Shown in pieces: positions 37,621-63,104 of a stretch of DNA of 64,000 nucleotides. The stretch lies in assembly GCF_900104085.1 (NCBI RefSeq), contig NZ_FNLD01000001.1, positions 785,048 through 849,047 of the forward strand, given 5' to 3'. The position numbers were made by a program, and so were the translations under genes. The notes under the pieces were generated by a model. That model was not told the DNA's origin. It was given only the letters and a program-made list of their open reading frames with translations, and made no database searches. How positions within the stretch are numbered: the stretch's first letter is position 1; each line of letters starts with the position of its first letter. Source of the DNA: Pseudoxanthomonas sp. CF125. GTDB taxonomy: Bacteria; Pseudomonadota; Gammaproteobacteria; Xanthomonadales; Xanthomonadaceae.

Positions 37621-40600
37621 ATGAAACGTATGCTGATCAATGCGACGCAGGAAGAAGAACTGCGCGTCGCCATCGTTGACGGACAGACCCTGTACGACAT
37701 CGATATCGAACAACCGTCCAAAGAACAGAAGAAGTCCAACATCTATAAAGGCCGGATCACCCGGCTCGAGCCTTCCCTGGAAGCGGCCTTCGTCGAATAC
37801 GGCGGCGAACGCCATGGCTTCCTGCCGCTGAAGGAAATCTCCCGCGACTATTTCCAGGCAGGCGTCGACCACAACAAGGCCGGCCTGAAGGAACTCCTGC
37901 GCGAAGGCCAGGAAGTCGTAGTGCAGGTCGACAAGGACGAGCGCGGCAACAAGGGCGCCGCCCTGACCACGTTCATCTCGCTGGCCGGCCGCTACATGGT
38001 GCTGATGCCCAACTCGCCCACCGCCGGCGGCGTCTCGCGCCGGATCGAGGGCGACGACCGCGCCGAGCTGAAGAAAGCGATGGACGCGCTGGTCATCCCC
38101 GAAGACATGGGCGTGATCATCCGCACCGCCGGCGTCGGCCGCGACGCCGAGGAACTGCAATGGGACCTGGACTACCTGCTGCAGGTCTGGCGCTCGGTCG
38201 CCGAAGCCGCGCTCAGCAAGCCGGCCCCGTTCCTGATCTACCAGGAGTCGCGCCTGATCGTGCGCGCCCTGCGCGACTACCTGCGTGCGGACGTCGGCGA
38301 GATCCTGGTCGACACCCCTGAGCTCTACGCCACGGCGAAGGAGTTCATAGAACAGGTGATGCCGCACAACCTGCGCAAGCTCAAGCACTACACCGACGAC
38401 ATTCCGCTGTTCAACCGCTTCCAGATCGAGTCGCAGATCGAAGGCGCCTACGAGCGCAACGTGCGCCTGCCCTCGGGCGGCTCCATCGTGGTCGATCAGA
38501 CCGAAGCCCTGACCGCGATCGACGTCAACTCCTCGCGCTCCACCAAGGGCAGCGACATCGAAGACACCGCCTTCCAGACCAACATGGAAGCGGCCGACGA
38601 AGTGGCCCGCCAGTTGCGCCTGCGCGACCTGGGCGGCCTGGTGGTCATCGACTTCATCGACATGTCCAGCAGCAAGCACCAGCGCGACGTCGAAAACCGC
38701 CTGCAGAACGCACTCAAGTACGACCGCGCGCGCGTGCAGATCGGCCGCATCTCGCGTTTCGGCCTGATGGAAATGAGCCGCCAGCGCCTGCGCCCCTCGC
38801 TGGGCGAATCCAGCCAGATCGTGTGCCCGCAGTGCGAAGGCCACGGCCGCATGCGCAGCATCGAATCGCTGTCGCTGTCCATCATCCGCGTGGCCGAAGA
38901 GCATGCGATGAAGGAGAACACCGGACAGGTGCTGGTGCAGGCCCCGGTGGAGATTGCCAACTTCCTTCTCAACGAAAAGCGCAACGCGTTGCGTGAAATC
39001 GAAAAGCGCCACGACGCGCCCATCGTCATCGTCGCCGACGAAGCGCTGCATACGCCGCACTACGAAGTCACCCGCATCCGCGAGAACGAGCTCGGCGAGG
39101 AAACCTCCAAGCCCAGCTACCAGCGCAATACCCCACGCAAGCTGCCCGTGCACGCATTGACCAAGGCGCAGTTGAACATTCCCGCGCCCGCGGTCACCCA
39201 CGTCAAGCACAGCCAGCCCGCGCCGATCCGCGAAGAGCGCGAGGAAGCGGCAGCGCCCGCTCCTGCATTCGTCAAGGCGCCCGCTGCGTCCGCACCCGCA
39301 GCCGCCGCCTCCGGCGGCGTAGTGGGATGGTTGAAGCGCGTGTTCGGCGGCGGCTCCAGCGAAACCTCCAACGCCACTTTGGCCGAGCAAACCCGCCAGC
39401 ACGAAAACCGCCAGCGGAATGACCGTGGCAACGACCGCAACAACGGCCAGCGCCGCGACGGCCGCGGAAACCAGCAGAACCAGGGTCGCGGCAACGCGGG
39501 CGGCCAGCGCCGCGATGAGCAGCGCGGTCCCAAGCCGCAGAACGCCCAGCCCGCTGCTCAGGGCGGCCAACAGCAGAAGCAGCGCAACGAACAGCCGAAA
39601 CAGCAGCAGCAACCCAAGCAACAGCAAAACCAGCCCAAGCAGCAGAAGCCGCAGAACGAGGCAGGCCAGAACAGCGGCCGTCCGCCGCGTCAGCCGCGCA
39701 ACAACGATGCGCCCAGGCAGCCCCAGCAGGAAAATGCGGCGGAAACAGCCGATCTGACCGTGGCGCCGGCTATCGCAGCGACAGCAGCGGTTGCGGCGAC
39801 ATCGGCTGCATCGTTGCCTGCAACAGCCCCCGCCGCTGCCGTCAGCGCCGCGCCCGCCGCCTCCGCCACGGAAGAAAAAGAAGCTTCTTCCATGCAGGTC
39901 GCAGCAGCCGCCAACGATTCCAGCGAAGGCGAAACCGCGGATACCGGAGACGGCACCGGCCGCCGCCGCCGTGGTCGTCGCGGTGGACGCCGCAGGCGCC
40001 GTGGCGCGGGCGAAACCGGCACCAGCAATGAAAGCAGCGGCTCGGAGGATTTCGGCGACGACGAACAACCTCAGGTCATCATCGCCAACGGCTCGCAACC
40101 CGAGTTCGATTTCGATGACGAAACCCCTGCCGCCAGCCCCGCCGCACGTCCTGCTGCTCAGGCGCCCGCCGCACCGGTGGTGGCGACGCTCGCCGTTGCC
40201 GCACCTGTTGCCGAGCAGGTCCGCCCCGCTCCGGAAGCGGCCACGCCCGAGTCCGTTGCTGTCGCTCCGGCGGCGGTCGAAACGAAACCAGCGGCCGTAG
40301 TCGAAACGCCAGAGCCAGCAGCGACGGCACCTTCCGTCGAATGGAGGACCGAATCGGTCGCCGCACAGACCGAGTCCTTGGCGATCGCCACGCCGGCCGA
40401 AGCCAATGCGACGGCTCAGGAAATCCTGAACAACGATACCGTCGAGAGCTTCACCCTAGTCGAGAATCCGGCCCCCGCGGAAGCGGCCTCGATTGTCGCG
40501 CAAGCCGCCGAGCCTGAAACCACGCCTGAAGCCGTGCACGAAGTCGTCGTACCGACTCCAGCGCCCGTGGCCGCCGTCGAGCCGCCCAAGCCCGCGCCGG

Positions 40601-55824: not shown

Positions 55825-55885
55825 GTCGGGGCTACGCCCCCGACGCACGGACGGTCAAGGCCTCGGGGGCGTAGCTCCGACCTAC
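55821..55885. repeat. GTAG-type REP inverted pair (family A) bridging two stop codons
   Basis: GTAGGTCGGGGCTACGCCCC and an inverted copy ending GGCGTAGCTCCGACCTAC. The TAG of the left GTAG (55822-55824) ends the plus-strand gene. The complement of CTA at the right end (55882-55884) ends the convergent minus-strand gene. Confidence 0.9.
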
Positions 55886-56595
55886 CGGAAGGGATCCGGG
55901 TCGGCTTCGAACAAGCGCTTGGCCACTACGCGTTCGGATTTTTCGATATCGGCGACGAACGCCTTGCCGTCGCCCAGCGCGGCGAAAGCGGCGAAGCCGC
56001 GTTCCAGAAAGCCTTGCAGCTCCGCCAGTCCGCTGGCCTTGGCCGGTCCGCGCGACAAGCGCAGCAGCATGGCCACGCCGGGCGTCTTCACTGCGCGGGC
56101 CAAGCCCACGCCCACGCCCGAGATCAGGTCGATCTGATGCCGGCGCAAACGCCGGTGTCCCACTTCCCGGTAGGCCTTCCCATACAACTCGGCATCCAGC
56201 CGCTTGCGGTTAGGCGCGATGCGCTGCAATTCATCGGCCATGCGCAGGTCCAGGGCATGGGTAAGCGCGCCCAGTTCGATGCCATCGGCCACCGTTCCCA
56301 GCACTGCGGTCGGCAACAGCCGCTGCATCATCGGCAGGACTTTGGCGACATTGGCGTCGCGCTTGCTGAAGTCGCGGTCGCCGTAAACGTCGGTCAGAAA
56401 GAACAGCGCCGCCGCACGCCGCTGCGGATCGTGGAGAAAATGCTCGAAACTGGTTTCCAAGCGCTTGGTCTGCCAACTGCGCAGGACCGGCAGCCAACGC
56501 AGTCGGTTGCGGGGCTCGCGCTTGTGGTCGTGAAGGGCTTGATGGCACGCCAGGCGGCGTCCGAGCCGATCGATCAGGGGATTGCCACGTGCCAT
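55882..56595 (-). CDS. Conserved protein of the FFLEELY-motif type, function unknown
   Basis: A 237-residue, mostly helical, basic soluble protein. The core AALFFLTDVYGDRDFSKRD (about residue 65) corresponds to the FFLEELY...DFSxRD motif that names this family in xanthomonads and relatives. There is no signal peptide or membrane helix. ATG 56595 (MARGNPLIDRL) was chosen over a start 14 codons upstream. It is divergent from the patatin gene. Confidence 0.75.
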   Translation of the reverse strand: MARGNPLIDRLGRRLACHQALHDHKREPRNRLRWLPVLRSWQTKRLETSFEHFLHDPQRRAAALFFLTDVYGDRDFSKRDANVAKVLPMMQRLLPTAVLGTVADGIELGALTHALDLRMADELQRIAPNRKRLDAELYGKAYREVGHRRLRRHQIDLISGVGVGLARAVKTPGVAMLLRLSRGPAKASGLAELQGFLERGFAAFAALGDGKAFVADIEKSERVVAKRLFEADPDPFR

Positions 56596-56724
56596 GCCGG
56601 CGATGATCCCGTGCGGGGCCCATGACCGCAAGCGCAATGCGCCCCCCGGTTCAATCCAAACAACGTTTACAAGCTCTAGACCTTGTCGGCTAAACTCGGA
56701 TAGTTTTTCGCAAGCGGACCGTGC

Positions 56725-57990
56725 ATGCTCTCACTTCATAGTGCCCAGAAACGCGGCTCAGGCGGGCGCATCGGCCTTGCCATCGCGGGCGGCGGCCCCA
56801 TCGGCGGCATGTACGAACTGGGTGCGTTGCGGGCCATGGATGAGGCGATGGACGGCCTGGACCTGACCCGCATGGATTGCTATGTAGGCGTCAGTTCGGG
56901 CGCTTTCCTCGCCGCGGGCCTGGCCAACCGCATGAGCACCGCCGAAATGTGCCGCATCTTCATCACCGGCACCAGCGACGATGCCGAGTTCCGTCCGGAA
57001 ATATTCCTCAAACCCAACGTGGGCGAGTACCTGCGCCGCGCCGCCACCCTGCCCGGTCTGTATGCGGACTGGGCGCGCCGGCTGATGCTCAACCCGCGCA
57101 AGGCCACGCGGCTGTCGGACCTGATTTTGCGTTTCGGCGGGCTGGTGCCGACCGGCCTGTTCGACAGCGAGGGCGTGGAAAGCTTCCTGCGCGACATCTT
57201 CACCCGCCGAGGCCGCAGCAACGATTTCCGCACGCTCGGCGCGGATTTGTTCGTGGTGGCGGTGGACCTGGACAGCGGCGAAGCGGTGCGCTTCGGCGAA
57301 AAAGGCTGGGACGGCGTGCCTATCTCGCAGGCCGTGCAGGCAAGCTCGGCCCTGCCGGGCCTGTATTCCCCCGTGCAGATCAATGGCCGCCATTTCCTCG
57401 ATGGCGCCCTGCGCCGGACCATGCACGCCTCCACCGTACTGGAACGCGGCATCGACCTGATGATAGGCATCAATCCGCTGGTGCCCTTCGACGCCGGCAA
57501 TGCCGCGCCGCAGGCCGGCGAGGAAGAACGGCGCGGCCTGGCCAGCGGCGGATTGCCCGCCGTGCTGTCGCAGACCCTGCGCACCCTGTTGCAGTCGCGC
57601 ATGCAGATCGGCATGGAGAAATACCCGCACCAGTTCCCCAACATCGACCAATTGGTGTTCGAGCCGAATGCGGAGGACAGCGAGCTGTTCTTCACCAATC
57701 TTTTCAGTTTCTCCGCGCGCCACCGCGTCTGCCAGCTCGCCTACCGCAATACCCTGGCCGACCTGCGCAAACGCGCCGACGTGCTGCGGCCCATGCTGGC
57801 CGCGCACGGCATCGGCCTGCGCGAGGAAATCATCAACGACCGCCACCGCTCCTTGCTGGACGGACTGGACGTGACTCCGCGCATGACCGAAACCACCGCG
57901 CGCCTGCGGCGTGCGCTGGACGACGTGGACCAGGTGGTGGCCAAGCGCCGCGCCCGACGTGCCCCGCGCGCGCTGAAACCGACCGGTTGA
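56725..57990 (+). CDS. Patatin-like phospholipase family protein
   Basis: A 421-residue serine acyl hydrolase. It has an oxyanion loop AGGGPIGGMYELG (about 20), the nucleophile in GVSSGAF (GxSxG, about 55-60) and the dyad Asp in HFLDGALRRT (about 228). The C-terminal third is helical and specific to this subgroup. Relatives act on phospholipids or neutral lipids; the neighbouring PHA-system and phasin genes make a storage-lipid or granule role worth considering. Confidence 0.87.
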   Translation: MLSLHSAQKRGSGGRIGLAIAGGGPIGGMYELGALRAMDEAMDGLDLTRMDCYVGVSSGAFLAAGLANRMSTAEMCRIFITGTSDDAEFRPEIFLKPNVGEYLRRAATLPGLYADWARRLMLNPRKATRLSDLILRFGGLVPTGLFDSEGVESFLRDIFTRRGRSNDFRTLGADLFVVAVDLDSGEAVRFGEKGWDGVPISQAVQASSALPGLYSPVQINGRHFLDGALRRTMHASTVLERGIDLMIGINPLVPFDAGNAAPQAGEEERRGLASGGLPAVLSQTLRTLLQSRMQIGMEKYPHQFPNIDQLVFEPNAEDSELFFTNLFSFSARHRVCQLAYRNTLADLRKRADVLRPMLAAHGIGLREEIINDRHRSLLDGLDVTPRMTETTARLRRALDDVDQVVAKRRARRAPRALKPTG

Positions 57991-58090
57991 AGCGCGGCAA
58001 GGCCATCCATCTTCGCGAGCTGGTGTGAAAGCTCTAGACAAGCGGTTGATTCTTCGGCTTCCTCAATCATTCGATTTGTCGACGGAACCC

Positions 58091-58630
58091 ATGGCCAAGC
58101 TGAAGAAAACCGCGCGCAAGACCACCTCCGCGAACAACCCCAACCTGCAGGCGCAGGCCGAACGTCTTTCCAAGAACCTCGGCGAATCGGCGCAGCAGGT
58201 GTGGCTTGCCGGCGTCGGCGCGTTCGGCCGCGCCCAGGCCGAAGGCAGCAAGCTTTTCGAAACGCTGGTGAAGGAAGGCCTTTCGGTCGAACAGCTCACC
58301 CGCAAGGTCGCCGGCGGCAAGGTCGGTGCGGTGCGCGACGCGGTCGAAAGCACGGTCGGCCAGGCGCGCGAACGCGCCTCCGACACTTGGGACCGCCTGG
58401 AAAAAGTGTTCGAAGAACGCGTACAGCGCGCGCTGCGTCGCCTGGAAGTGCCCAGCCGCGAGGACCTCAGCGCCCTGATCGACCGCGTGGATTCGTTGAA
58501 CGGGGAGCTGCGCAAACTCGGTGGCGCCGCCGCGCCGCGCAAGACCGCCGCAAAGAAGGCCGCGACCAGGAAACCCGCAGCGAAAAAGGCCGCACCGGCC
58601 AGCAAGCGCGCGCGCAAAGCGGCTAAATAA
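58091..58630 (+). CDS. Phasin-family (PhaF/PhaI-like) granule-associated protein
   Basis: A 179-residue protein. The amphipathic helical phasin region (about 25-110) contains SAQQVWLAGVGAFGRAQAEG and LFETLVKEGLSVE. A coiled coil follows, then a Lys/Ala/Pro tail (AAKKAATRKPAAKKAAP) like histone H1 or PhaF, which can bind DNA. In pseudomonads PhaF coats PHA granules and segregates them by binding the nucleoid. ATG 58091 is preferred to an upstream GTG. No PHA synthase is in the window. Confidence 0.85.
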   Translation: MAKLKKTARKTTSANNPNLQAQAERLSKNLGESAQQVWLAGVGAFGRAQAEGSKLFETLVKEGLSVEQLTRKVAGGKVGAVRDAVESTVGQARERASDTWDRLEKVFEERVQRALRRLEVPSREDLSALIDRVDSLNGELRKLGGAAAPRKTAAKKAATRKPAAKKAAPASKRARKAAK

Positions 58631-58850: not shown

Positions 58851-59867
58851 ATGCCCGCCTGGTTGTTCGGATCGGTCATTACGCTCCTGGTGGGTGCCGT
58901 TACCACTGCTTATCTCTGGCTTGTCCGCCGGCGCGACGATGAAACCGCGGCCGGCTTGCTGGCGCTTGCCGGAATGCGCTGGCGCGATTTTTCCCGCCTG
59001 ATCCTGGAAGCCATGGAGCTGCGCGGGCTGGGGCGCATTCCCATCGCAAACGAAGACAGCCAGGAGCATGGCTCCAGTTTCCTGCTCTCCGGCCAGGGCA
59101 AGCAGCTGTTGCTGGCCTGCAAGCATGGTTCGGCCTACCGCATCGGTTCCGCCGCCGTCGACGAATTCGCTTCCGAGATCCGCCTGCGCGGCGTGCAGGG
59201 CGGGATCCTGGTGACCGAGGGCGTGCTGGACAAGGGCGGCGTGGAAAAAGCGGCCCGGTACAACATCGAAGTCATCGATGGCCCCCTGCTCTGGCCAACG
59301 GTCAAGCCGATGGTGGAAGGCAACCTGCAGCGCCGCATCGTCGGCAATGCCTCATCCCGCGCGCGCCGCCACATCGGCATCGCCTGGCTGGGAGCGTTCA
59401 CCCTGGGGCTGGCGTCGGCGTTGGCTTTTCCAGGCGTACTGGCCCCCGAATCGGCGCCGGTGCCGACTCCAGCATCGGCTGCTCCCGCGACGCCCGCCGC
59501 GGAGACCGGCAAACCTGCCATTGCACCCGCCGCCCCTGCATCCGGCATTGCGACGGCACCCAAGCCTGCGCCTGCGCCTGCGACCACAGCACCCGCCGCC
59601 GGCGCTACCGCAGCTGCGACCGAAGCCGACACCGAAAAGCACCGTGCGGAAATCTCCAGGAAATTGTCCAAGACTCCGGGCATCAGCCGCGGCGTCTGGA
59701 TATCGCGCTCGACCCTTGCCGTGGACCGCATCGTCCCCGAACAAGACGCCTGGCCGCTGGTCTGCAGCCAGCTGAAGGCCTACCCCGATCTGGAGTTCAC
59801 CCGGGTGCAGATGAATCCACCCCAGGGCAGCACCGATCAAGTTCGCTGGCGGCAGTGCCCGCTTTAA
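58851..59867 (+). CDS. Membrane-anchored Mrr-like (restriction-endonuclease-fold) protein
   Basis: A 338-residue protein with an N-terminal helix (residues 3-24), a cytoplasmic Mrr/PD-(D/E)xK-like domain (about 35-165; KQLLLACKHGSAYRIGSAAV, then GVQGGILVTEG), a second helix (about 177-197), a Pro/Ala-rich linker (200-265) and a C-terminal domain. The Lys of the QxK-type motif is kept (ACKHG), but I cannot find the conserved Asp of GxD. It may bind DNA without cutting, and the membrane topology is odd for a nuclease. AAAGG precedes the ATG. Confidence 0.75.
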   Translation: MPAWLFGSVITLLVGAVTTAYLWLVRRRDDETAAGLLALAGMRWRDFSRLILEAMELRGLGRIPIANEDSQEHGSSFLLSGQGKQLLLACKHGSAYRIGSAAVDEFASEIRLRGVQGGILVTEGVLDKGGVEKAARYNIEVIDGPLLWPTVKPMVEGNLQRRIVGNASSRARRHIGIAWLGAFTLGLASALAFPGVLAPESAPVPTPASAAPATPAAETGKPAIAPAAPASGIATAPKPAPAPATTAPAAGATAAATEADTEKHRAEISRKLSKTPGISRGVWISRSTLAVDRIVPEQDAWPLVCSQLKAYPDLEFTRVQMNPPQGSTDQVRWRQCPL

Positions 59868-60045: not shown

Positions 60046-62034
60046 CTACCAGTGCACGCCGCGCATCAGCGAAGCGAATGCGATCTGCTCCTGGCTGGGC
60101 GCCGATTCCTTCAGCGCCTTGCGGTCGCCCTTGGCGGCGGCCGAATCGGGGAACAGTTCGAACGCCGTGCTCATGATCACCTCATAAGCCTTGGGCGCCA
60201 CGGCGTTGATCAACGCCGAGAAAATGCCAAGGCGCGTGGCGATGCGGCTTGGTTTCTCGATGATGGCTTTCACCAGCAGGTCCGCAGCCTCTTCCGGAGT
60301 CAGCGTAGGCACGCTGTCGTACATCTTGGTCGGCGCGATCATCGGCGTCTTCACCAGCGGCATGTTGATGGTGGTGAAGCTGATGCCCTTGCCCGACAGC
60401 TCGCCCTGCGCGCAGCGGCTGAAGGCGTCCAGCGCCGCTTTCGACGCCACGTACGCCGAGAAACGCGGCGAACTGGCCAGCACGCCGATCGAGCTGATGT
60501 TGATGATGTGGCCCTTGCGGCGATGGGTCATGGTGGGCATGAAGCCCATGATCAGGCGGATGCTGCCGAAATAGTTCAGCTGCATGGTGCGTTCGAAATC
60601 GTGGAAGCGGTCGTAGCTGGCCTCGATGGAACGGCGGATCGAGCGTCCCGCGTTGTTGATCAGGATATCGACGTGGCCATGCTCTTCCAGCACCAGTTTC
60701 ACCAGCCGGTCGCAGTCGGCCATGTCGGCCAGGTCCGCGGTGTAGGCGAAGACCTTGCCGCCGGCTTTCTTCATTTCGTCGCGGGCCTTGAACAGCTCTT
60801 CTTCGCCACGCGCGACGATTACGGTTATCGCGCCGGCCTCGGCCACGCGCTGCGCGGTGGACAGGCCGATGCCCGACGAACCGCCGGTGATCACCACCAC
60901 CTTGTTGCGCACCTTGCCCTTCAGGGTGCGGTCGATGAACAGGTCTGGGTCCAGGTGCCGTTCCCAGTAGTCCCACAACCGCCATGCGTAACCTTCCAGC
61001 TTGGGCACCGCGATGCCGCTGCCCTTGAGCGCGCGCTCGGCTTCGCGGCTGTCGAAACGGGTGGGATAGGTGATGAACTTCAGCACTTCCTTCGGAATCT
61101 TGAAGTCGCGCAGCAACATGCCGATGAAACGCTTCACCGGCGGCAAGTTGCCGACCGCGCCGCGGATGCCGCTGGGCACGAAGGCGAACATGCGCGCATC
61201 CACGCGCATGGTCATCTCCGGCGCATGGCCGGCGCGGGCGAAGGCGTTCAGCACTTCGCCCACGCGCATGGGTTCCGGATCGGTAAGGTGGAAGGTGTGG
61301 CCGTCCAGCTTGGGCTTGTGCGCGATGTGGTCCATGGCGTCGGCCACGTAATCCACCGGCACGATATTGATGCGTCCGCCCTCGATACCCAGCACCGGCA
61401 TCCACGGCGGCAGCGTCTCGCGCAGTTTCTTGATCAGGGTGAAGAAGTAATAGGGGCCGTCGATCTTGTCGATTTCGCCGGTTTGCGAATGGCCGACCAC
61501 CATGCCGGGGCGGTAGATGCGCCATGGCAGGCGCTTCTCGTTGCGCACCAGCCCTTCCGAATCGTGCTTGGTGCGCAGATAAGGATCGTCCAGGCCCTCG
61601 GCCTCGTCGAACATGTCTTCGCGGAAGATGCCCGGGTACAGGCCGGCGGCCGCGATGGAGCTGGTGTGGTGGAAGGTTCCGGCCTTGATGGCCGCCGCCA
61701 GATCCAGCGCATGCTGGGTGCCGTCGATATTGGCGGCGCGCTGGGCTTCGGCGCTGGCGGCCAGGTCGTAGATGGCGGCCAGATGGAAGAAATGTTTCAC
61801 CTTCCCCGACAGCGTACGCAGTTGGCCTGGCGTGAGCCCGCACTTGGGCTTGGTCATGTCGCCGTAGACCACGCTGACGCGTTTGAGGTCCCAGCCCGCC
61901 TTCTTGGCGATGGCGTCGAATTTCTTCTGCGAATCCTTGCGGACCAGGACATATACAGTCCCGCTGCGCTTGAGCAGGTTGGTGACCAGGTAGCGGCCGA
62001 TGAATCCTGTGGCGCCGGTGACGAAATAACTCAT
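60046..62034 (-). CDS. Two-domain fatty acyl-CoA reductase-like protein (Marinobacter FAR type)
   Basis: A 662-residue fusion. The N-terminal half is an extended SDR / male-sterility-type reductase (GATGFIGRYL at 7-16; FHLAAIYDL; YLRTKHDSE; IYRPGMVVGHS; INIVPVDYVADA). The C-terminal half is a classical SDR (ITGGSSGIGLS about 381; INNAGRSIRRS; SAYVASKAALDAF). Length, order and long stretches agree with what I recall of the 661-residue Marinobacter enzyme that reduces acyl-CoA to fatty alcohol for wax esters. The upstream in-frame region is not conserved, so ATG 62034 was chosen. It is divergent from an acyl-CoA-binding protein gene. The activity is an inference. Confidence 0.82.
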   Translation of the reverse strand: MSYFVTGATGFIGRYLVTNLLKRSGTVYVLVRKDSQKKFDAIAKKAGWDLKRVSVVYGDMTKPKCGLTPGQLRTLSGKVKHFFHLAAIYDLAASAEAQRAANIDGTQHALDLAAAIKAGTFHHTSSIAAAGLYPGIFREDMFDEAEGLDDPYLRTKHDSEGLVRNEKRLPWRIYRPGMVVGHSQTGEIDKIDGPYYFFTLIKKLRETLPPWMPVLGIEGGRINIVPVDYVADAMDHIAHKPKLDGHTFHLTDPEPMRVGEVLNAFARAGHAPEMTMRVDARMFAFVPSGIRGAVGNLPPVKRFIGMLLRDFKIPKEVLKFITYPTRFDSREAERALKGSGIAVPKLEGYAWRLWDYWERHLDPDLFIDRTLKGKVRNKVVVITGGSSGIGLSTAQRVAEAGAITVIVARGEEELFKARDEMKKAGGKVFAYTADLADMADCDRLVKLVLEEHGHVDILINNAGRSIRRSIEASYDRFHDFERTMQLNYFGSIRLIMGFMPTMTHRRKGHIINISSIGVLASSPRFSAYVASKAALDAFSRCAQGELSGKGISFTTINMPLVKTPMIAPTKMYDSVPTLTPEEAADLLVKAIIEKPSRIATRLGIFSALINAVAPKAYEVIMSTAFELFPDSAAAKGDRKALKESAPSQEQIAFASLMRGVHW

Positions 62035-62197
62035 GTGCGGTCTATCCCTGGTGTTTGGGCGCGGCCCCTCCGCTGCGCCCCTGCGGCCTAAGTTGCCAGA
62101 GATGGCGCTGTTCGACAATGCCGCCGCGTATGGAATGGCATTGACCCGTCCTGCCCCTCGTGGTGTGATGCGCGCGATCACTGGGAGGGATCTTTAC

Positions 62198-62455
62198 ATG
62201 GCAGATCTGAAAAGCAGCTTCGAACAGGCATCCAAGGCGATCCAGGGCCTGTCCGAACGTCCGGACAACGACACTCTGCTGCGCCTGTATGCGCTGTACA
62301 AGCAGGGTTCGGAAGGCGACATCAGCGGCGACAAGCCGGGGTTCTTCGATTTCGTCGGCACCGCCAAGTACGAAGCCTGGGCCAAGCTGAAGGGCACTTC
62401 GCAGGAAGAGGCGCAAAAGAAGTACGTGGATCTGGTGAAGAAGCTGACCGCCTGA
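62198..62455 (+). CDS. Acyl-CoA-binding protein
   Basis: An 85-residue four-helix ACBP that binds long-chain acyl-CoA and shields or delivers it. Family landmarks are LLRLYALYKQGSEGD, GDKPGFFDFVGTAKYEAWAK and [18 protein letters not shown] precedes the ATG. It is divergent from the acyl-CoA reductase-like gene (163 bases between starts) and is followed 22 bases later by a TetR gene. ACBPs are sporadic in bacteria. Confidence 0.94.
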   Translation: MADLKSSFEQASKAIQGLSERPDNDTLLRLYALYKQGSEGDISGDKPGFFDFVGTAKYEAWAKLKGTSQEEAQKKYVDLVKKLTA

Positions 62456-62477
62456 CCCGGCGCCGGATTAGATCCTG

Positions 62478-63104
62478 GTGGCACGCGATACGCGCCAACG
62501 CATCCTCGATGCCTCGCTTGCGATGTTCAACACGCAGGGCGAGCCACACGTCACCACCAACCACATCGCCGACGAGCTGGAGATCAGCCCGGGCAATCTG
62601 TACTACCACTTCCGCAACAAGGACGACATCATCGAGCAGCTGTTCGCGCGCTATGAAGAGCGCATGGACGCGGCCCTGGCGACGCCGTCCGGACGCCTGC
62701 CGGAACTGGAAGACATCTGGCTGCAGTTGCATCTGGTGTTCGAGTGCATCTGGGACTACCGGTTCCTGTACCGCGACCTGGTCGAGATCCTCAGCCGCAA
62801 CCGGCGCATCCGCATGCGTTTCGCGCGCATCCTCAAGCGCGCCGACGACAGCGCGCACGCGGTGATGCGCGGCCTGTCGCAGGCCGGCATCATGCGCGCC
62901 TCGGCCGCGGAACTGGCCGGCACCGCCACCAACGTGCTGGTCATCGCCACTTTCTGGCTCAACTACGCCGCCGCCCGCGGCGACAAGGACGAACAGGTCG
63001 CAATCCGCCATGGCATCGTACAGGTGATGATGCTGCTGGCTCCGTTCCTGCGCGATGCGGAGCGGGTGCATTTGAATACGTTGACGCAGGCTTATCTGGA
63101 TTAG
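62478..63104 (+). CDS. TetR/AcrR-family transcriptional regulator
   Basis: A 208-residue regulator with an N-terminal TetR helix-turn-helix (RQRILDASLAMFNTQGEPHV and ELEISPGNLYYHFRNKDDII) and a ligand domain rich in basic and aromatic residues. It starts at GTG. Being just downstream of the ACBP gene and near the acyl-CoA reductase, it may sense an acyl-CoA or fatty acid, but no palindromic operator stands out in the 163-base divergent region. Confidence 0.88.
   Translation: MARDTRQRILDASLAMFNTQGEPHVTTNHIADELEISPGNLYYHFRNKDDIIEQLFARYEERMDAALATPSGRLPELEDIWLQLHLVFECIWDYRFLYRDLVEILSRNRRIRMRFARILKRADDSAHAVMRGLSQAGIMRASAAELAGTATNVLVIATFWLNYAAARGDKDEQVAIRHGIVQVMMLLAPFLRDAERVHLNTLTQAYLD

Follow-up and report, generated by a model that had tools for sequence, protein, structure and literature searches.

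A conserved fatty acyl-CoA reductase locus in Pseudoxanthomonas sp. CF125 and its predicted part in wax-ester storage

The window analysed here is a stretch of 64,000 nucleotides from the 4.2-Mb genome of Pseudoxanthomonas sp. CF125 (contig NZ_FNLD01000001.1, positions 785,048 to 849,047 of the forward strand; G000:C6:785048-849047 in our numbering). A first-pass annotation of its sequence had described a fatty acyl-CoA reductase (FAR) gene lying divergent from the genes of an acyl-CoA-binding protein (ACBP) and a TetR-family regulator. All three genes, as well as their orientation, were confirmed at the following coordinates:

60046..62034, minus strand: FAR, an AcrB/PRK07201-type fatty acyl-CoA reductase of 662 residues with two fused short-chain dehydrogenase/reductase (SDR) domains (NF005539, NAD_binding_4, adh_short)
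62035..62197, no strand: divergent intergenic region of 163 bp with promoter-like conserved elements (alignment of 65 intergenic sequences, and listings of such regions)
62198..62455, plus strand: ACBP, acyl-CoA-binding protein of 85 residues (PF00887; acyl-CoA-binding proteins in the PDB)
62478..63104, plus strand: TetR-family regulator of 208 residues (PF00440 and PF13972; conserved in codirectional arrangement with ACBP)

The FAR gene runs on the minus strand from an ATG at 62034 to a stop codon ending at 60046, and its start codon is separated by 163 bp from that of the divergent ACBP gene. For ACBP, the mechanically called open reading frame, from position 62033, starts too early; translation from the ATG at 62198 yields the 85-residue protein. 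The TetR gene starts with a GTG at 62478, and its product matches PF00440 and, with 147 bits, PF13972.

The reductase had been likened to the two-domain, fatty-alcohol-forming enzyme of Marinobacter, and this likeness was borne out by several lines of evidence. In an NCBIfam profile search FAR scored 999.1 bits with NF005539 (PRK07201; cut-off 549) over model positions 1-657 of 657, while the second-best model reached 316 bits, which is under its own cut-off. The Pfam matches divide the protein into a NAD_binding_4 half (residues 5-234) and an adh_short half (residues 378-568). Among nine aligned homologues, residues T6-G7..G10-F11..G13 and Y152-xxx-K156 of the N-terminal domain and T383-G384..G388-I389-G390, N460-N-A-G463 and Y528-xxx-K532 of the C-terminal domain are invariant; these motifs correspond to the cofactor sites and the YxxxK catalytic residues of SDR enzymes. 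Identity to 12 Marinobacter orthologues is 61-62% over the full 662 residues. In a quick, midpoint-rooted tree of 88 proteins, in which long branches were flagged as possibly false joins, FAR was placed among Pseudoxanthomonas sequences (the nearest, L093, being 94% identical). On the question of whether it falls inside or outside the FAR clade, a group of 85 sequences with a support of 100 unites it with the Marinobacter orthologues, apart from the more distant NF005539 proteins L073-L075. Inside that group, the Marinobacter proteins belong to a set of 21 sequences (support 84) and the window FAR to a set of 64 (support 90). The best match to a solved structure (97 bits) covers residues 4-270 only, and none covers the whole protein closely.

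Maqu_2507 of Marinobacter is presumably of the same two-domain type, given its 639-residue match to Rv3391 of Mycobacterium tuberculosis. The latter protein, FCR1, makes fatty alcohol and is 40% identical to Maqu_2507, with a match spanning those 639 residues (PMC3522743, in part). The PRK07201 profile, in turn, is the one used in parts of PMC11948995 for AcrB, an NADPH-dependent enzyme converting acyl-CoA to alcohol, and acrB is described there as almost confined to genomes that also encode a wax ester synthase/diacylglycerol acyltransferase (WS/DGAT, or WS), 94% of the time. The window FAR resembles these AcrB/PRK07201 enzymes (Maqu_2507 type; FCR1/Rv3391) in its full-length two-domain architecture, profile score, cofactor-site and YxxxK residues and co-occurrence with WS/DGAT, the comparison being with Marinobacter orthologues and not with the characterised sequences themselves. 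It differs in being divergent from ACBP and TetR, neither of which lies near FAR in the 12 fetched Marinobacter loci. Judged by its sequence, FAR is thus a new member of the known AcrB-type reductase family, and the enzyme itself is not new.

A WS/DGAT-type acyltransferase, for which a genome search had been proposed, was found as a single match in the source genome, with its catalytic domain at G000:C6:570921-571715, on the same contig and about 273 kb from FAR. The gene (L066:9380-10846) encodes a protein of 489 residues that has both WS/DGAT Pfam domains, scores 421.5 bits with TIGR02946 (cut-off 310) and contains HHSYADG as its HHxxxDG motif; in the PDB it matches the WS/DGAT structures 7nxg (E 4e-35) and 6chj (E 2e-33). 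To follow the genes through the family, the same 149 genomes from 54 genera were searched for each of them, with FAR accepted at E <= 1e-100 and TetR at E <= 1e-30, yielding FAR in 94 genomes, ACBP in 98, TetR in 96 and WS/DGAT in 94. FAR and WS occur together in 93 genomes and are both absent from 54, leaving one genome with FAR alone (G142) and one with WS alone (G114), which are incomplete assemblies (71% and 85% complete, respectively). Joint presence and joint absence are direct observations. They can also be followed within mixed genera: G082 and G108 of genus g3 carry both genes and G002, G054 and G132 neither; in g19, G141 carries both and G019, G065, G093 and G119 neither; and in g28, G028 lacks both while the other four members have them. 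That is, WS tracks FAR in every sampled member of these three genera, the exception in genus g54 being G114. This within-genus agreement is more telling than Fisher values for the co-occurrence, which ignore kinship and were not relied on. In a survey of 274 genomes of the class, FAR scored over its cut-off in 10 (the source genome included), ACBP was found in 17 and WS/DGAT in 18 (17 of them over its cut-off); eight of the 10 FAR genomes also have WS and eight also have ACBP.

The window ACBP matches PF00887 with 100.7 bits (cut-off 28.3) and aligns from residue 6 or 7 to residue 83 or 84 with solved acyl-CoA-binding proteins in the PDB (best E 3e-20), with the Tyr and Lys positions kept that we assume to be ligand contacts. 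It is a member of the acyl-CoA-binding protein family and is predicted to bind long-chain acyl-CoA. The frame holding the ACBP gene is open for 662-876 codons in G059, G086, G123, G128, G131 and G148, which is probably a chance opening in GC-rich DNA and not a fusion. ACBP is uncommon among microbes, being recorded in 3,635 of 99,211 microbial genomes (PMC8174751, in part).

The synteny proposed as a check on the three genes proved to be conserved, and as gene content and linkage it is observed as such. FAR and ACBP stand back to back, with starts at most 1 kb apart, in 75 of the 94 family FAR genomes. TetR is read in the same direction as ACBP in 95 of the 98 genomes that have ACBP, the gap between the two matches never exceeding 298 bp. 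Among the remaining 19 FAR genomes, ACBP lies within 11 kb in nine, 272 kb away in one and on another contig in seven, and two have no ACBP match. In one of the seven (G041), FAR and ACBP are probably adjacent too, because a FAR fragment is found next to ACBP at a contig end (L175). Across the 149 genomes, FAR and ACBP are found together in 92, FAR alone in two, ACBP alone in six and neither in 49; the corresponding numbers for FAR and TetR are 92, two, four and 51. Seven genomes (G019, G021, G052, G065, G066, G093 and G119) lack FAR and have kept ACBP and/or TetR, and WS is absent from all seven. At these FAR-less loci (L163-L169), a gene for an Mrr protein is still found beside ACBP/TetR in seven of seven cases and a phasin gene in four of seven, which suggests that these loci once held FAR and have lost it, with the direction of change read from these neighbours and not from a species tree.

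Gene orders in other lineages were compared in named loci taken from the best 80 of 542 loci encoding a relative, a sample in which near relatives are overrepresented and some loci are ended by contig ends. Among these 80, the divergent FAR/ACBP pair occurs in 49, with TetR in 47 of them, and anywhere in the fetched DNA ACBP is present in 54 and a TetR of the window type in 52. Neighbourhoods of this kind were found in Lysobacteraceae, Rhodanobacteraceae, Wenzhouxiangella and Marinicella. At the FAR loci of Marinobacter (ACBP in none of 12), Hahella, Oleiphilus, Oleispira, Thalassolituus and Endozoicomonadaceae, the other genes sought were not in the fetched flank, unlinked ACBP genes not having been searched for; this speaks against ACBP as an obligate partner of an AcrB-type FAR. 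Elsewhere the same genes recur in different arrangements: WS / phasin / TetR-ACBP / FAR in L113, L114, L116 and L136 (and in L109 without the phasin on that side), ACBP / WS / TetR-phasin / FAR in L125, ACBP / WS / TetR-patatin-phasin / FAR in L153, WS / ACBP / phasin / FAR in L128, FFLEELY-patatin-TetR-WS / ACBP-phasin-FAR in L143 and WS / FAR in L146. Three genomes of the class survey (G215, G345 and G254) have ACBP next to WS in divergent orientation. The differing orders suggest that these genes form a functional set and are not simply an ancestral arrangement frozen in place, and since the divergent neighbour of ACBP switches between FAR and WS, we read ACBP as serving the pathway and not FAR alone. 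The proposal that ACBP is the delivery partner of the reductase therefore survives in part: the linkage is conserved, but FAR is not singled out by it.

Taken together, FAR family membership, the synteny with ACBP and TetR and the presence of a WS/DGAT in the genome make a route from acyl-CoA via fatty alcohol to wax ester the best reading, and we consider it probable, at roughly 0.8, that the locus supplies the reductase of a pathway for storing wax esters (neutral lipid). From the sequence comparisons such a pathway appears well supported and common in the family. Its attribution to a xanthomonad thus holds, but not as a peculiarity of one strain, given FAR in 94 of the 149 family genomes. 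The catalytic, binding and regulatory steps, like the direction of loss above, we infer. By homology to the marinobacterial and mycobacterial enzymes, FAR would reduce long-chain acyl-CoA to fatty alcohol with NADPH within one polypeptide, and the WS/DGAT encoded elsewhere would couple this alcohol with another acyl-CoA. The ACBP gene has FAR as its back-to-back neighbour here, and WS in some other lineages; its product would buffer acyl-CoA and present it to the whole pathway. The TetR protein is most likely a repressor of the divergent promoters between FAR and ACBP, from which acyl-CoA or a fatty-acid-like ligand would release it.

Several observations weigh against this reading. WS is not adjacent to FAR in the source genome, and of the 80 named loci only 10 include it in the DNA fetched around FAR; two of the 10 class-level FAR genomes have no detected WS, and two have no ACBP; the family genomes are related and hence not independent observations. 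Moreover, ACBP or TetR persists in the seven genomes lacking FAR and WS and so may have other duties, and the phasin encoded nearby may serve polyhydroxyalkanoate (PHA), a class III PHA synthase being found in 133 of the 149 genomes. The persistence of these two genes bears on the possibility that ACBP and TetR work as a pair in acyl-CoA homeostasis generally (for fatty-acid stress or β-oxidation control), with FAR as one target that shares their promoter region by chance. This would fit ACBP without FAR in six genomes and TetR without FAR in four, and the nearest solved TetR structures (3nnr, 3rh2) are named as regulator and nothing more specific. However, ACBP and TetR are each present in 92 of the 94 FAR genomes as opposed to six and four, respectively, of the 55 others, and the FAR-less loci look like remnants, all still flanked by the Mrr gene and four of the seven also retaining the phasin gene, so that we regard such a pair as rather doubtful. 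Direct channelling, in which ACBP would be a dedicated partner handing acyl-CoA to FAR, could account for the divergent arrangement in 75 of 94 family FAR genomes and 49 of the best 80 of 542 loci, and for the presence of ACBP in 92 of those 94 genomes when only 17 of 274 in the class have it. We find it unlikely nonetheless, as ACBP is divergent from WS instead of FAR in G215, G345, G254, L125, L128, L143 and L153, is missing from the fetched flanks of the Marinobacter, Hahella, Oleiphilus, Oleispira, Thalassolituus and Endozoicomonadaceae FAR loci, and is retained by six genomes having neither FAR nor WS.

The other two alternatives concern the reductase. It might make fatty alcohol or aldehyde for a product other than wax, e.g. 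ether or capped lipids, as does FarA, a protein with a different reductase domain that serves ether lipids in Myxococcales (PMC11948995, in part). FarA is a PLN02503-profile match with less than 30% identity to AcrB according to the same source; the adh_short C-terminal half of the window FAR fits AcrB. Against a non-wax product, 93 of the 95 family genomes having FAR or WS/DGAT have both, and we hold such a product to be very unlikely; the alcohol-capped lipids suggested in the first-pass annotation gained no support. That FAR owes its name to a mere resemblance and is a common fused SDR doing something unrelated could be argued from the NCBIfam label, which merely says 'SDR family oxidoreductase', and from the incomplete structural coverage (97 bits, residues 4-270). 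Yet with 999 bits across the full AcrB profile, 316 bits and a missed cut-off for the next model, and 61-62% identity to the Marinobacter orthologues, we give this explanation hardly any credence.

While the trio itself was correctly delimited, the conserved neighbourhood is larger than had been described and also includes genes for a phasin, a patatin-like lipase and an FFLEELY protein. The additional genes in the window are:

55882..56637, minus strand: FFLEELY motif protein, divergent from the patatin gene (NF047641, 212 bits)
56725..57990, plus strand: patatin-like phospholipase/lipase (PF01734, 93.5 bits)
58025..58630, plus strand: phasin of the PHA granule-associated type (PF05597, 154 bits; TIGR01837, 128 bits), likely start ATG 58091
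58851..59867, plus strand: Mrr_cat-domain protein, between phasin and FAR (PF04471, 39 bits)

Among the 53 named FAR loci for which roughly 10 kb of DNA was available to either side, the phasin is a neighbour in 31, the patatin-like protein in 23, the FFLEELY protein in 22 and the Mrr_cat protein in 12. The last was therefore rejected as part of the module and is probably a passenger of the neighbourhood, and a DUF6929 gene downstream of TetR was likewise rejected, being found in none of the 53 loci; it recurs in two other genomes of the same genus (L193, L201) and is regarded as a local neighbour. The phasin belongs to the same family as PHA phasins (PF05597/TIGR01837), from which the window type is set apart by its company: a PF05597 match of at least 100 bits is present in 94 of 94 FAR genomes and 30 of the 55 other family genomes, and in 86 of the 94 it lies no more than 6 kb from FAR, its start being at most 2.8 kb from a FAR end. 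Class III PHA synthase scored over its cut-off in 133 of the 149 genomes (source genome included), below it in one and was undetected in 15; a PhaC_N match was obtained in 36 genomes, none of them belonging to those 15. Ten of the 15 have FAR and WS, and all ten have kept the phasin, as opposed to none of the five genomes with neither FAR nor a detected synthase. The ten belong to just two genera (g10 and g42), Silanimonas and Arenimonas to judge by the FAR coordinates of G009 and G076, which coincide with the ones in L100 (Silanimonas lenta) and L099 (Arenimonas fontis), so that the exception is nearer to two observations than to ten. Phasin retention in these genomes is a hint that the protein may coat wax droplets. 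As a general claim, the idea that a lack of PHA leaves the phasin nothing but wax to coat had to be abandoned, given the synthase in 133 genomes and the phasin in 30 of the 50 FAR-less genomes with PHA synthase; the ten-genome exception survives.

Within the proposed storage pathway, the phasin would most likely form a coat on the lipid body and the patatin-like lipase would most likely mobilise its contents. We tentatively extend this to a 'wax body' module, reshuffled between lineages and made up of FAR, WS/DGAT, ACBP, TetR, phasin and patatin lipase, in which the PHA-type phasin would be the native coat of the wax droplet, ACBP would feed both acyl-CoA-consuming enzymes and an acyl-CoA-sensing TetR would switch all of them; we hold this to be possible, at somewhat less than even chance. 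As separate observations, a second small Lys/Ala-rich protein, phasin-like by eye, is encoded just past the window (L192:6730-7497, minus strand; G000:C6 at about 849.7-850.5 kb), convergent with the TetR-DUF6929 side, and weak PF05597 matches occur about 0.3-1.2 kb beyond TetR in G062, G063, G015 and G008, that of the source genome not being among the matches listed.

For the control region, 78 FAR/ACBP intergenic sequences were reduced to 65 by dropping those of 90 bp or less, those of 300 bp or more and identical copies. The alignment displays a conserved TTGACC at about 62141 facing ACBP and a conserved TTGCCAGAG ... GACAAT block facing FAR, elements that we infer to be promoter-like; regions upstream of WS also contain promoter-like TTGAC ... 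TG elements. A loose pattern for the FAR/ACBP and WS promoters gave two sites in the genome, the same number as the reversed control, and was ill-set in that it missed both of its own promoters (through the ACBP spacer and the last bases of WS). No TetR operator was found in the 65 aligned sequences or the listings of WS upstream regions, and no shared element was seen upstream of patatin, the FFLEELY/patatin intergenic regions displayed having a different conserved block. Upstream of the family-type WS (L066:9300-9380), the near-palindrome GTGATTCAC is present in eight of the 21 sequences listed, with GTGCTTCAC in the source genome, and is a candidate element.

The idea of ACBP as delivery partner is only partly new. 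Parts of PMC10351704 describe coastal-sediment scaffolds, several of Betaproteobacteria and one of Gammaproteobacteria, on which ACBP and a Maqu_2507-like SDR accompany ws/dgat, a phasin on another scaffold, and some WS/DGAT sequences placed with Xanthomonadales. These neighbourhoods resemble the window pathway in combining ACBP, a FAR-like SDR and ws/dgat, with the phasin on a separate scaffold. They differ in being metagenome scaffolds described by their content, the main text being without TetR and the relevant section naming no patatin and surveying no Xanthomonadaceae. The first-pass annotation knew of no description of such a fatty-alcohol/wax route for the family: the AcrB-WS/DGAT link is already in print (PMC11948995, in part), but judged by titles and the beginnings of abstracts, the open-licence literature returned no account of a wax-ester pathway in Xanthomonadaceae, Lysobacter, Pseudoxanthomonas or Xanthomonadales. 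We are dealing with a known kind of enzyme inside a conserved and somewhat under-described gene set. Wax-ester storage is predicted to be common in Pseudoxanthomonas, Lysobacter, Luteimonas, Arenimonas and their relatives, and these non-model strains could serve to ask what role ACBP plays in bacteria, what coats a wax-ester body and how the pathway is switched.

Elsewhere in the window, the segment 38001-40000 has a strong AT skew (0.298), and short tandem repeats of the CAG/AAC type at 39569-39653 probably represent a Gln/Asn-rich coding stretch.

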